Positions 16,957-53,469 of a stretch of DNA of 64,000 bases are shown one piece after another. The notes under the pieces were generated by a model. The model worked only from the letters and a program-made list of their open reading frames with translations, was not told where the DNA came from and did not search any database. The position numbers were made by a program, and so were the translations under genes. Numbering within the stretch: position 1 is the stretch's first letter; each line of letters opens with the position of its first letter. Origin of the DNA: Candidatus Altimarinota bacterium (lineage in GTDB: Bacteria > Patescibacteriota > Gracilibacteria > Absconditabacterales > Absconditicoccaceae); contig JAIPIU010000002.1 in the NCBI GenBank assembly GCA_021734475.1, positions 83,592 through 147,591 on the forward strand. Reading direction: 5' to 3'.

Positions 16957-17117
16957 TTCACTGTTTCATAGAATAAGTGAATTAAATATTAAGAGTAAGT
17001 TCAGTTTTGATGGGAAGAAAAAATTCACTGTTTCAGTGAAAGAGTGAACTAAAAGAAGTAATTGTTTGTTTTGTTTTCTTTGTTCACTGCTTTAGTGAAA
17101 TTCACTATATTAGTGAA
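16957..17117. promoter_or_regulatory. array of TTCACT/AGTGAA dyads (candidate operators)
   Basis: Three 17-bp inverted repeats of the form TTCACT-N5-AGTGAA lie at 17024-17040, 17083-17099 and 17101-17117. A looser copy with a 13-bp spacer is at 16957-16981, and a half-site AGTGAAC follows at 17043-17049. This fills much of the 343-bp gap before the HigA-like regulator. A TTGACA box stands at 17201-17206. The layout fits binding sites for a dimeric helix-turn-helix protein, most simply autoregulation by the next gene. Confidence 0.6.
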
Positions 17118-17280: not shown

Positions 17281-17973
17281 ATGAATCAACATCCATGAAA
17301 AATTTTAAAAGAAATAATAAAATCAAAATCTCTAACACAGAGACAATTTGCTATTTTGCTTTGAAAAAAAGTTTCAGAATTAAATGAGCTTATAAATTGA
17401 AAAAGAAATATTACCGTTCAATGGGATATTTTACTTTCACATGTCTTATGAACGGATCCAAAATATCGATTAAATTTACAAAACGACTATGACTACCAGA
17501 TAGCTAAAGATGATTTTGACACAAGTTCTTTACAAAAAATAGAAGAATTGGCTTCTGATAAAGTCGAAAAAATAAATAAAGAAGAAAAAAACACCCAAGA
17601 ACTTAGTAAGCCCAAAACCCAATCAAACAAGCCAGATATAAATTTACCATCAAAATCAAAACATCAAATCCCAATTAAAAAACCAGAAAAAATAATAGAT
17701 AGTTGATATAAAAATAATAAATATGATAAGCAAAAAATTTACAATGAAGATGATAGATTCGATTCTTATTTCTCACCAAAAGATAAAAAAGAAAAACATG
17801 GATTAACGTCGGTTAATGTTGATAAAAATTGAAAAAATAAGAAATTAAATTCTGGCCGCAATCCCACCACTACAAGTGGTGTGGGATCGGAATGACAAAA
17901 AAAATGACAAGAAAAAAAAGATGATCACAAAGATCATCACAAACACAAAGAAAATGTATTTAGGAATTTTTAG
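17281..17973 (+). CDS. HigA-like XRE-family regulator with long C-terminal extension (230 aa)
   Basis: Residues 1-50 read MNQHPGKILKEIIKSKSL followed by TQRQFAILLGKKVSELNELINGK, the HigA/VapI helix-turn-helix. The usual HigA length is about 100 aa; here a charged, low-complexity tail follows, ending in a His/Lys-rich segment. No HigB toxin is adjacent, so this is a solitary regulator. Residues about 190-205 are encoded by a palindromic repeat copy (17849-17896) read in frame. Dyads upstream suggest autoregulation. The next gene is convergent. Confidence 0.78.
17849..17896 (+). repeat. palindromic repeat (ATTCCGG class) embedded in the higA-like coding sequence
   Basis: It begins ATTCTGGCCGCAA and ends ATCGGAATGAC, the termini of the repeats found between genes elsewhere in the window. 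Inside it a hairpin pairs CCCACCACT with AGTGGTGTGGG. It is read in frame as SGRNPTTTSGVGSEG, where the last Gly is the TGA of the terminal GGAATGAC. Confidence 0.75.
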
Positions 17974-25612: not shown

Positions 25613-25615
25613 ATT

Positions 25616-25686
25616 GTAAATACTGTAAAATTTGTAAAAACTGTAAAATTAGTCTTTACCGTATTTACTGCATTTACAGTGTTTAC
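25616..25686. repeat. inverted repeat in the comEC leader
   Basis: The arms GTAAATACTGTAAA (25616-25629) and TTTACAGTGTTTAC (25673-25686) are complementary except one base. Between them the unit ACTGTAAAATT recurs. The hairpin covers the junction between the pyruvyl transferase stop and the comEC start and could regulate either. Confidence 0.55.
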
Positions 25687-25696
25687 TATATCACAA

Positions 25697-27280
25697 ATGC
25701 TAATCTTTATATCAACATTTACAATATTCACTTTCATAAATATTTTTTTTGAAAATATAAAAATATCTTTCTTTGTATTTTCTATAGTTTTCATTGTTTT
25801 ATTATTTTATTTACTCGTCAAATTCAGAAAATTTTTTTATAAAAAATGGAAATATTTCTTTATTCTGACAATATCTTTCATTGTATCTATTCTTGCCATT
25901 ATTATCAAAACCCTGACTTATGATCAGAATTTATTCAACAAGTTTTTTGATTTAGAAATAGAAAATATCAACAACTCAAGCTGATTGAATTATTTTATAT
26001 GATCATGAATAATAACTGATACATACTCATCTAATAAATATATTTTTCAACTAGCTAATTGATCCAAATATATACTCGATTCCAAAAAATCTTATCAAAT
26101 CCAAGATCAATTACGATTGGTTTGATATCAAAAAAATGTAGACATCTCTTCAAATAAAAACAGTTCATGAATATTCAATCGAGAATTTGACTACAATAAA
26201 CGGCTCATAATGAAGTGATTTTACGGTAATATTTATGAACAAAATTCTATCGATTTAAGTCAAAAAAATAAGATTGCTTCATCATTTTATTCTTCACAAT
26301 GACTATGATATATCAAAAGAAATCTTCAGTCAAAAATCATCTCTATATATTGAAATTCTCGTAACGCTGGTCTGATTTTGTGAATGCTAATATGAGACAA
26401 ATCTCAAATACCAAAACCTGATTATCAAAATTTTATTGATAGTGGACTAGTTCATATCATAGCTGTCAGTGGTGGTAATATTATTATGATAGTGATTTTT
26501 TTGTCTATTGTATTGTTCTTTTTACCTTTTTATTTTAAAAATTTTGTTATATTTTTAGTTGTTATATTGTATTCACTGGTCTGTTGAATGGACTCAAGTG
26601 TCTTTCGTGCTGTTCTTTTTGCTTGAATGACTATGATGGCTTTGTTTATGGGTAAAGAAAATAATTTTCGAAGATCGGTCTGAATAGTTTATATTGTCAT
26701 GCTTTTGTACAATCCTTATTTTTTATTATATGATTTGGGCTTCTTACTTAGTTTTTGAGCTGTAATAGGTATAAAAATATTTTCTAGTCTAAAAGATCAA
26801 TGATCAAAGATACAAGATAATAAAATGAAAACAAGATTTTGCTTGCAATACTTAAGACCGGAATGACTAGTGAGAAAGGTTTATAATAACTACATCAAAC
26901 CTAGTCTATGAGCCAATATATGAATATTTCCTATAATTATTTTCTTTATGTGAAAGATTAATTTAATCTGATTTTTGTCTAATCTTTTCGTACTTCCAAT
27001 TGTACCAATACTAATGATATACTGATTTTTTAGTATTTTTTTATACCAGATATTTCCATATCAAATTATTTTAGATATACAGATCGTACTTACAAACTAT
27101 GTTTTTGCTATTTCAGAACTAACTTGAAATTACTGAATATATCTATTGGTGGATTCTCCATTGATCAAGTATATGGTTTTATCTTTATTTATAATTTTAT
27201 TAGTTATCCACATAGCTAAAATTAATAAAAGCACATCAAAAACGACTAAAACAAAAAACATTATCAAAACATGATTTTAG
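25697..27280 (+). CDS. comEC: ComEC/Rec2-family DNA uptake channel protein
   Basis: Conducts single-stranded DNA across the inner membrane in natural transformation. The competence domain is recognised by HIIAVSGGNIIMIVIF, CGMDSSVFRAVLFAGM, NPYFLLYDLGFLLSFGAV and many membrane helices. An N-terminal OB-like segment lies at about residues 110-190. I chose the ATG at 25697; a GTG at 25679 is also in frame, and the frame is open back to the previous stop. About 527 aa, without the C-terminal metallo-beta-lactamase domain seen in long ComEC proteins. Stop TAG. Confidence 0.88.
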
Positions 27281-27523: not shown

Positions 27524-27595
27524 AAGGGAGTGGTGTTAGTGGTAGCACGTCGGTCTCCGAAGCCGAAGGGATAGGTTCAATTCCTGTCTCCCTTG
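27524..27595 (+). tRNA. tRNA-Arg (anticodon CCG)
   Basis: Acceptor AAGGGAG pairs with CTCCCTT, D-stem GTGT/GCAC, anticodon stem TCGGT/GCCGA around CTCCGAA giving anticodon CCG, T-arm ATAGG/CCTGT around TTCAATT. Discriminator G; no encoded CCA, unlike tRNA-Gly. Reads CGG, a codon rare in these AT-rich genes. It sits inside a cluster of palindromic repeats. Confidence 0.85.
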
Positions 27596-27606
27596 AATTC
27601 ACAAAA

Positions 27607-27730
27607 GTCATTCCGGTCTCAGGCGTTGCAACCGGAATCTAAATCACTTCGTCATTCCGGTCTCAAGTGTTGCAACCGGAATCTATAAATAATACTAGAT
27701 TCCCTCTTCCAACAATAGTCCGGGAATGAC
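27607..27730. repeat. palindromic repeat cluster, ATTCCGG class
   Basis: Two direct copies of GTCATTCCGGTCTCA...GTTGCAACCGGAATCT (27607-27640 and 27651-27684), then a diverged unit from AGATTCC to CCGGGAATGAC (27698-27730). Each copy is a hairpin with CATTCCGG/CCGGAATC arms. Tandem and opposed arrangement resembles REP/BIME organisation. Confidence 0.75.
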
Positions 27731-39171: not shown

Positions 39172-39262
39172 AATAGTAGTATAGCTTATAAAGCCATATA
39201 ATTCATTTGTCAAAAACAATCTTGAAAAGTAGATAAAAAAGAGTATAGGGGAGAAAGTCTTA

Positions 39263-39294
39263 CCACCCGGGTGTCTTTTTCTGCACCCGGGTGG
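39263..39294. repeat. REP pair, CCCGGG class, just upstream of the transposase
   Basis: CCACCCGGGTG and CACCCGGGTGG face each other across a T-rich 10-bp spacer. It ends 26 bp before the transposase start, as expected for REP/RAYT modules. Confidence 0.72.
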
Positions 39295-39320
39295 GATATA
39301 AGATTTTATTTTTCACTCGG

Positions 39321-39821
39321 ATGCAAATGCCTAAAAGATTAGAATTTGAAGAAAATGCATATTATCATGTTTATAATAGATGATTAAATAAACAAATACT
39401 ATTTCATAATAATAAAGACTTTCAGAGATTTTTACTATATTTGGATATTTATAAAAATAAGTGTAAAAAAGAATTATGAATTATTTCTTATTGTATATTA
39501 CCCAACCATTTTCATTTCGTGCTACTTAATAAATCACAATCTCATAAAATATCTTATTTTATCTGAAATATCTGCGCATCATATACGAGGTATTATAAAG
39601 CTAAATATTGAGCTGATAAATGAGTATTATATTTTGAATCTAGATTCAAAGCCAAATTAATTGACAACGATGAGTACCTACAACAATGCATTCAATATGT
39701 CGAATATAACGCACTCAAACATAAATTAGTTGAGAAGTGAGCTGATCGGATATTTAGATCAGATTCTGGTTCAAAATTAGGATCGGAGATATTAGATTTA
39801 GATTGGGAGTTTGAGTTTTAG
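39321..39821 (+). CDS. REP-associated tyrosine transposase (RAYT, Y1 HUH type)
   Basis: 166 aa (an ATG at 39327 is also possible). Features of the IS200/RAYT family: YHVYNRGLNKQILF near the start, the HUH motif in LPNHFHFVLL (His63, His65), and a C-terminal helix CIQYVEYNALKH with the probable nucleophile Tyr126. RAYT enzymes cut and rejoin single-stranded REP hairpins. CCCGGG-class REPs lie on both sides, and another copy stands at 32.6 kb. It uses both TGA and GGN for Gly, so it is adapted to the host code rather than newly arrived. Confidence 0.88.
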
Positions 39822-51653: not shown

Positions 51654-53426
51654 TTATTTAAATTCATTTTTCATCTGATTTTTTCTATAAGCATTTGCAA
51701 ATCTATGTGCTTCATCACGAGCTTTTACAATGATTTTGTCTGATTGATCATAGATTAAATCAATGCTTTTTATTTTCTTATCTTTATCAAAATAGTATAT
51801 TTTTTCTCCGATTTTTCAATTTTGATTATTTTGTCATATTCTACTCTTTTTTCTAGCTTCTCCTTTTCAAATTGAAATAAAATCAATCTGATCCAATATA
51901 TTTCTCCATTTACTATTTTCTTCTATTATTTTTTTCATTATTCATAGTTGTCATTTACCTCAATCTATAATAAACAAATTTGGTAAAAAATCTTTATTTT
52001 TCAGTCTACGAATTATTACTTCTTTTAATGATTCATAATCGTTTATCATTTGTCATTCCGGCGATGTTTTTTTGCGGCCGGAATCTATTTTTTTATTTTT
52101 AGATACTATTTTTTCTTTTGCATAATTCATGGTGATTTTATATTTTCTATAATATTTCTTTTCCAATAGTCATCATATTAGGCATGAAAGTCATCAACTC
52201 GTCCATCATCATGATAAGTGAGATATATCTATACATTCGATATGATAAGGAAAATTATTCAATTTATATCTTTCTTTTAAATTCTGCAAAAGTTCATTGT
52301 TCAAATTATCTCATTCAAAAGACGTAGATATGATATAGGATTCAAAAAATCATTCAATCAATGTGTTTATATCTTTTTGATCAGATTTGGATAATTTTTT
52401 TATAGATTTACTAATTCAGATAATTTCTTGGGTATCGACAAATAAATCTTTATCCAAAATAAATTCTCCACAGTCTTTTGTTATACTAGCCACTATACTT
52501 GCAATATCTGATTCATCTTGATGGAATTTATGACGAACAATATCGATCAATTTTCATTCATAGAAATACAATAGGACGTAAACAAACCACTTTCACATTT
52601 TTTTTATTTGGAAAACATATCAAGAAGTTTGTTTTTTTAATACTACTGTCTGAGCTTCACTCAAATTTTCTATCTGTAGATAAATATCTCTAAGTTTAGC
52701 TGCTCGTTCAAAATTTTCCATCTGGACAGAATTGTCTATTTGTTTCAATATCTCTTTTTGTATGGGTTTGATATCTCCACGAAAAAAAGATGTAATATAA
52801 TTGATAATTTTTTTATAATCATCTATTATTAGTCATTCCGGCGAGTTTTTTTTGCGGCCGGAATCTTTTTTATTATTTTTAGAGATTGCTTCATTCTTCG
52901 CAATGACAGGTAAATTACACCGACCTTTACAAAGTCAAAAATAGAAATCTGAACATATTTTTCCTTTTTTAAATTCTGATATTTTACATCATCTATATTG
53001 CAAAACTTGTCTAAGATATTGTAAAAATTTTTTCAAATTTATTGTATTGTGTTTGGGTCATATATATGTAGATCCATCATTTAATCTTTTTCTAGTAATG
53101 AAAATCTGAGGAAACTCTTCATTTGTTATTTTTATATAGGCATAACTATTTGATCATTTGAGCATATTATTGTAATAGGGTTTATGTTTTTTTATTAGAT
53201 TATCTTCCAAATATAGAGCCTCACTCTCATTTTTAACCAGTACAAAATCTACACAGTTAGCTTTTTCCAACATCTCTTGTTTCCATATAGATCATGGAGA
53301 AAAATATTGAGCAACCCTCTTTTTTAGATCTTTGGCTTTTCCTATATACAAAATATCTCAAGTTTTATCTTTGAAAAAATAAACTCAAGCCTTATCTGGT
53401 ATTTTTGATATATTTTTAATATCCAT
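51654..53426 (-). CDS. uvrC: excinuclease ABC subunit C with two repeat-derived insertions
   Basis: 590 aa. GIY-YIG domain (KAGVYFFKDKTGDILYIGKA) at residues 10-90, Cys cluster CSDFYFGLCKGRC, a UVR motif (VQMENFERAAKLRDIY), and the RNase H-like domain with IECIDISHLSGG and IDGGKGQLG. It ends just after RDEAHRFANAYRK, so the C-terminal helix-hairpin-helix pair normally present in UvrC is missing. Residues about 174-198 and 447-459 are encoded by palindromic repeats read in frame (DSGRKKNSPEG and DSGRKKTSPEG). Both sit at loop positions between domains. UvrC makes both incisions in nucleotide-excision repair. Confidence 0.93.
52052..52086. repeat. ATTCCGG-class palindromic repeat inside uvrC
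   Basis: GTCATTCCGGCGATG...GCGGCCGGAATCT, a complete hairpin unit. On the coding (minus) strand it reads D-S-G-R-K-K-T-S-P-E-G; the last Gly is TGA. Confidence 0.8.
52832..52907. repeat. two palindromic repeat units inside uvrC
   Basis: 52832-52866 is an ATTCCGG-class unit, read D-S-G-R-K-K-N-S-P-E-G on the coding strand. 52884-52907 is a GATTGCTTC...GAAGCAATC-type unit ending CGCAATGAC, read PVIAKNEAIS. Both are in frame. Confidence 0.78.
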
Positions 53427-53469
53427 ATTTTCTTAAGTAAATGAATATTTTATATTTTCTTAAAATCAT

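Follow-up and report, generated by a model that had tools for sequence, protein, structure and literature searches.

A HigA-like regulator with a variable tail and a conserved C-terminus

The window analysed here, a 64,000-nucleotide stretch of contig JAIPIU010000002.1 of Candidatus Altimarinota bacterium, encodes a HigA-like regulator whose N-terminus matches Pfam HTH_3 (PF01381; E-value 9e-6, 26.1 bits against a cut-off of 23) and is followed by a long polar tail and the C-terminal residues KENVFRNF (Table 1). Judged by composition alone, the tail is probably disordered. Homologues were found in 35 of the 99 genomes searched, and 30 loci were fetched; [VI]FxxF forms the C-terminal end of 27 of these proteins, and the three that lack it (L028-L030) are the weakest of the 30 matches. 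The length of the tail varies from 9 to 194 aa across the 30 homologues, and from 12 to 194 aa among the 27 with the motif. A C-terminal [VI]FxxF behind so variable a tail could be a docking motif on a tether. Upstream of the gene lie operator-like TTCACT-N5-AGTGAA palindromes, and a similar pair with the same 18-bp spacing is kept in this genome (G000) and in both of its genus-mates (G001 and G002), which suggests that the regulator controls its own expression.

Table 1. Coordinates of the features discussed, numbered from the first nucleotide of the window.
Feature	Position	Strand	Remarks
TTCACT-N5-AGTGAA palindrome	17024-17040		further copy upstream of HigA
Two TTCACT-N5-AGTGAA palindromes	17083-17099, 17101-17117	.	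operator-like, 18 bp apart, upstream of HigA
HigA-like HTH regulator	17281..17973	+	230 aa, code-25 ORF
Palindromic repeat copy, long-loop subfamily	17847..17896	-	50 nt; + strand translation includes NSGRNPTTTSGVGSEG
Inner hairpin ATCCCACCACTACAAGTGGTGTGGGAT	17861..17887	.	diverged form common to C2:28610-28659 and C2:34944-34993
C-terminal motif VFRNF	17956..17970	+	3' of repeat copy
Repeat copy in ComEC	26834..26867	-	gene + 25613-27280; peptide TRFCLQYLRPEGL
tRNA, anticodon CCG	27524..27595	+	ARAGORN label tRNA-Arg
GTCATTGCGA-family copies near Y1_Tnp (IS200-like) gene	40853-40943		gene 39249-39821
Repeat copy 1 in UvrC	52052..52086	+	gene - 51654-53432; peptide IDSGRKKTSPEGQ
Repeat copy 2 in UvrC	52832..52866	+	peptide KDSGRKKNSPEGL
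GTCATTGCGA-family copy adjoining UvrC copy 2	52884-52907		peptide VIAKNEAIS

The repeat described below sits between the HTH domain and this C-terminus. Were the gene to stop earlier, for instance at TGA read as a stop, the repeat would lie in a 3' UTR, and under translation table 11 the region indeed holds no ORF of at least 60 aa. Against this, the ORF contains eight TGA codons, four of them before residue 60 and within the HTH domain, and in a set of 211 well-scoring genes TGA is used at a rate of 41 per 1000 codons. Moreover, G000, G001 and G002 all have [VI]FxxF downstream of the repeat and in frame with it, which requires the repeat to be read through without a shift of frame. An untranslated tail, which the earlier note had named as one of two findings that would count against it, is thus highly improbable; the conserved downstream C-terminus indicates that the tail is almost certainly translated.

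A copy of a dispersed repeat within the HigA-like tail

The earlier note, made from the letters of this DNA, had described a diverged in-genic copy of a repeat at 17849-17896, with an inner hairpin of its own, placed in the tail after the DNA-binding domain and read from S-G-R to E-G with TGA as the last Gly. The location is right, although the element is slightly longer (Table 1), and the polar tail beyond the N-terminal HTH does hold it. The sequence and its reading in the code-25 ORF also agree with that description: the copy, TTCTGGCCGCAATCCC..GGGATCGGAATGACAA, translates as L-N-S-G-R-N-P-T-T-T-S-G-V-G-S-E-G-Q, its final Gly encoded by TGA, and the segment under table 25 is NSGRNPTTTSGVGSEGQ, as had been given. 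Its best partner among 123 genomic copies (C2:28610-28659) confirms the diverged form with its inner hairpin, being identical at 48 of 57 positions without a gap and with the hairpin present in both; another of its best partners (C2:34944-34993) has the same inner hairpin.

The HigA copy obtains a low score, 6.5 bits with an E-value of 0.75 in 3 kb, from a covariance model built on the plain 34-nt form of the repeat, and it is missing from the 123 model matches kept, which could be taken for chance resemblance in a low-complexity, A-rich tail. The weak score is explained by membership of the long-loop subfamily. The alignment score of 78, by comparison, is reached by none of 1000 dinucleotide shuffles (maximum 39.8) and by none of 3867 real segments of the window (maximum 46); together with the gapless identity that spans the inner hairpin, this leaves chance with a negligible probability. 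By alignment, then, the HigA segment is a real copy of the repeat family.

Comparison of HigA-like orthologues, a check that the earlier note had proposed, was likewise in its favour. By pattern search, the module is absent from all 27 homologues of other genera (L004-L030), and the HigA tails of the two genus-mates each contain a copy. That of G001 (LDSGRKIITPEGQ) is a near-perfect consensus copy (53 bits) at another tail position than in G000, while that of G002 (LNSDRKISSSEGQ) is diverged (15 bits). The copies of G000 and G002 plausibly derive from one ancestral insertion, given their shared KHG..NVDK context; a three-way alignment of the HigA sequences did not put them together. In G001, a possible worn remnant (LNSIQNTVSSKLQ) is found where the G000 copy sits.

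The presence of a copy in both genus-mates, and the near-perfect consensus in G001, would also fit a selected and reused module in which S-G-R..E-G is functional, for example in binding or in tuning the length of a tether. This is improbable: unrelated enzymes contain the same peptide types, the position and sequence of the copies differ between the genus-mates, the tail itself varies greatly in length across the homologues, and at least two frames of the repeat are in use (see below). No sign of a HigA function for the repeat-encoded peptide was seen among our results.

A REP-like palindrome family

The family to which this copy belongs is a multi-copy, REP-like palindrome, GTCATTCCGG..CCGGAATC, with about 120 copies in a genome of 1.17 Mb (8 contigs). 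The plain form, GTCATTCCGG..CCGGAATCT, has 77 exact cores, against none for the reversed control. The covariance model, built from 30 copies, matched 136 sites at E<=1; removal of 13 reverse-strand shadows left 123. The stem, ATTCCGGY/RCCGGAAT, comprises 8 bp with A-T pairs first, and its Y-R pair covaries in the 30 aligned copies. Loops are of about 13 nt in the commonest form and reach about 50 nt in copies with inner hairpins. Across the 123 copies the head is TGTC in 59, AGTC in 37, CGTC in 17 and GGTC in 2, such that GTC is kept and the first base varies; the tail is CTA in 57, CTT in 46 and CCA in 4. Pairs of close copies are head-to-head in 23 of 29 cases. The model also matched 26 sites in G001, 38 in G002, 11 in G004 and 48 in G020.

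These features recall the CGTC-tagged REPs, among them RPE-4 and RPE-6 of Rickettsia and dRS3 of Neisseria, which are characterized by a terminal CGTC (often TGTC or CCTC) beside a stem of 8-9 bp, by head-to-head dimers, by copies within genes that include uvr genes, and by the lack of a transposase of their own (Di Nocera et al. 2013, PMC3733652). The present family has a comparable unpaired xGTC head, and it shares an 8-bp stem opening with A-T pairs, the predominance of head-to-head dimers, intragenic copies that again include a uvr gene, and the absence of any dedicated transposase found. It differs from the elements described there in its loops (theirs 4-5 nt), in the first base of its head (mostly T or A here), in its CTA/CTT tail (theirs CCA), in its in-frame use of TGA as Gly, and in a host group absent from the phyla that the paper lists. 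The best reading is of a REP-like element of CGTC type rather than a strict member, from which loop length and tail set it apart.

The repeat has the look of a mobile element and is presumed to move; a dedicated mobiliser for the repeat was sought and none was found. A RAYT (Y1 transposase) is unsupported in this role: the genome has two Y1_Tnp genes, the 1.5 kb around each of nine Y1 loci checked contained no confident match to the repeat (a single match had E 0.73), and G020 has its 48 repeat matches yet no Y1_Tnp that we could find.

In-frame copies in housekeeping genes

To catalogue copies within genes, 206 instances were examined (124 from this genome, 18 from G001, 34 from G002, 7 from G004, 21 from G020 and 2 from G024), using a home-made coding score of the flanks for the in-gene call. 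Coding sequence lies on both sides in one open frame for 17 of the 206, and in different frames for none; one match with a stop inside the element adjoins a tRNA and is probably non-coding. Two of the 17 were set aside to give 15 independent sites: the HigA copy of G002, which may stem from the insertion seen in G000, and L211, where inspection by eye of the flanks and of an identical GTCATTGCGA partner pointed to the CsaB-like gene at C2:10244 as its counterpart, L211 being the orthologue in G001. Hosts in this genome, identified by Pfam, include UvrC (two copies), ValS (two), PheT, TrmD, TatD, KsgA and a CsaB-like polysaccharide pyruvyl transferase; AckA and ComEC copies, missed by the filter, are listed here and excluded from the count of 15. 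By these calls, a dozen or more copies are in frame within proteins, housekeeping enzymes among them.

Several of these copies are absent from orthologous proteins. The first ValS copy is a clean addition, absent from all four other orthologues, and the TrmD copy is absent from all nine; the PheT copy is common to G002, whose loop is longer. Peptides expected to span a repeat junction include KIPAAKLEAGMT in ValS and DSGRKK..SPEG in UvrC. At the site of UvrC copy 2, G001 has a different palindrome-like sequence (VILSEAKDPG), which we read, from our own inspection rather than a search, as a GTCATCCTGAG-type repeat. In G002, ComEC (L272) shows element peptides at several places, one of them where the G000 copy sits, and loops of ComEC appear to be a hot spot for repeat insertion in the family (G000, G002, perhaps G004 and G005). 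The TrmD copy (L120) is preceded by a GTCATCCTGAG..GCGAAGGAT palindrome, translated LSSGASAKD with an in-frame TGA, which makes a mixed-family head-to-head pair within the gene. A large protein of unknown function (L121; G000:C4:165471-165528) has an in-frame copy expanded to KIPAAKLDPRGAAGQAAGMT.

Codon meanings in this lineage

The meaning of the codons that the repeat brings into genes was assessed from alignments of UvrC, ValS, PheT, TrmD and HigA with their relatives. Of the 55 cells that are informative for CGA (88 minus 11 gaps and 22 CGA/CGG cells), 43 have Trp in the relative; CGG stands opposite Trp in 3 of 4 (12 minus 6 gaps and 2 CGA cells), and AGA opposite Arg in 213 of 354. CGG occurs 28 times in 70,213 codons, the rarest of those listed. 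Residue 63 of the HigA-like protein is an example of a CGA/CGG codon facing a Trp conserved in relatives. The tRNA with anticodon CCG (Table 1), read by eye, has A1:U72, G73 and no A20, and by the rules set out in PMC8629427 it would have a tryptophan-type identity. Three repeats of two families are clustered directly 3' of this tRNA (27608-27730). Alongside TGA as Gly, the source of these rules gives Trp as the meaning of CGA/CGG in Absconditabacteria and of CGG in some Gracilibacteria (Shulgina and Eddy 2021, PMC8629427), and the codon meanings found in our alignments agree with it. This genome is therefore best read as using TGA for Gly and both CGA and CGG for Trp, i.e. table 25 plus CGA/CGG as Trp, a reading drawn from alignments and tRNA bases.

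Strand and CGG content set in-gene copies apart

The earlier note had counted three in-genic copies, all in one frame, and argued that their frame use is not random. Taking its other two copies as those of UvrC, both do share the frame of the HigA copy, but the count was incomplete and its three copies represent two genes. The fourth copy in the window, in ComEC, uses another left-arm frame (RFCLQ..PEG). Genome-wide frame statistics, which the note had proposed, reject a single frame: at the 15 sites, with orthologous insertions counted once, the left arm reads DSG/DFG/NSG in 8 and KIP/EIP in 6, and the remaining copy lies on the model-sense strand. The earlier inference is wrong in form, yet it points at a real restriction, which lies in the strand and in the absence of CGG.

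Inside genes, 14 of the 15 copies run antisense to the strand of the model, whereas copies that lie between co-directional genes divide 40:49 (Fisher p 0.0005); with a looser gene caller the antisense:sense ratio was 22:1, and with the stricter one 16:1, which we used. The frames in use are free of CGG at 14 of 15 sites; in a background of 189 copies this holds for about 41% of frames that are open (p 3e-5). These p-values are rough, since sites are treated as independent and the background is drawn from several genomes. The exception is the TrmD copy, whose right arm has CGG in frame. The element's own TGA is in frame at 9 of the 15 sites, where the protein would be truncated under the standard code. 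Stop codons were rejected as the cause of the strand bias: an open frame is commoner in the sense than in the antisense orientation, and open frames alone would predict the opposite bias. Hydropathy alone is also insufficient, given that two polar frames, RFRLQ and SFRR, are seldom used and KIPAA is near neutral yet used; this failure lends weight, on 15 sites, to the argument from CGG and Trp, namely that CGG frames may be missing because they would insert Trp. The HSG..QPES frame is open and mostly polar, and is used once.

These biases could instead arise from the mechanics of insertion, through strand- or site-specific transposition or head-to-head dimers with another family, rather than from later selection. 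Close pairs are indeed mostly head-to-head, and the copies in CsaB, UvrC and TrmD are the downstream half of a pair with another family. Moreover, a second family, GTCATTGCGA..GCAATC, with 50 exact copies, lies within genes on the opposite strand (6:1), a bias due in part to the CsaB-like gene and UvrC, where its copies are paired head-to-head with those of the first family. Insertion mechanics, however, would leave the avoidance of CGG in both arms unexplained, there is no strand bias between co-directional genes, and the two families still differ when partnered sites are removed (11:1 against 1:4, p 0.01). The opposite strands of the two families favour selection on the peptide over a common rule of insertion strand, albeit on small numbers, and we regard a purely mechanical origin as unlikely.

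A probable account: a translated insertion filtered by the genetic code

Very probably, then, the HigA segment is a tolerated, translated REP-like insertion that has been filtered by the genetic code of its lineage. A repeat copy would have inserted into the polar, probably disordered linker of the regulator, where its peptide would be translated as a harmless part of that linker. On this account, which assumes that new insertions occur on both strands and in every frame, those causing a stop, a frameshift, or a hydrophobic or Trp-containing peptide would be lost. The frames that survive, DSG(R/C)..PEG and KIPAA..AGMT, would be those that are Trp-free and not strongly hydrophobic; survival of the first requires TGA to encode Gly. 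A bolder proposal, which we advance tentatively and hold at somewhat less than even probability, is that recoding governs the access of the repeat to genes, TGA as Gly having opened a polar, stop-free frame and CGA/CGG as Trp having closed the CGG frames.

Parts of this explanation have precedents. The authors of PMC3733652 consider it plausible that genes which an insertion inactivated have been lost, and that linkers or loops may accommodate others. The passages of PMC8629427 consulted contain no discussion of repeats; here the code is tied to which insertions persist. RAYT-mobilised REPs flank a Y1 transposase gene, an arrangement of which the nine Y1 loci checked gave no confident example.

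Palindromic elements of Rickettsia (RPE) were reportedly described by Ogata and colleagues in 2000. They are covered in a later review (PMC10969869) and are a precedent for in-frame insertion. Like RPEs, the present repeats are palindromes that keep the frame of the unrelated genes they enter, in a genome that is reduced, and they seem to be tolerated; they lie inside genes, in an open frame, and are absent from orthologues. They differ in size, at 34-60 nt against the roughly 150 bp given there, and in that strand and frames match a changed genetic code. WPE-like insertions of Wolbachia in addA, addB and priA are, in the portion of the source available, likewise in frame, mostly without premature stops, and in recombination and replication genes, but are much longer, the likeness being one of description (PMC4224334). 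In-frame MITE insertions are mentioned for Coxiella in the section of PMC5896051 available to us. Among titles and abstract openings of the open-licence literature, we found no description of translated palindromic repeats in Gracilibacteria, Absconditabacteria or Patescibacteria.

Our analysis thus adds a recoded bacterium of a candidate phylum, with a genome of 1.17 Mb, to those in which palindromic elements are inserted in frame. The repeat may have entered genes only after TGA was reassigned. If recoding does govern its access, translated REP insertions would result from recoding and leave a record of it that can be read, and the same element under different codes should survive in different frames; relatives with and without recoding that carry GTCATTCC-type repeats allow a direct test. 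For annotation, short non-homologous inserts are to be expected in essential enzymes of these genomes, and NCBI table 25 alone misreads many Trp residues as Arg.
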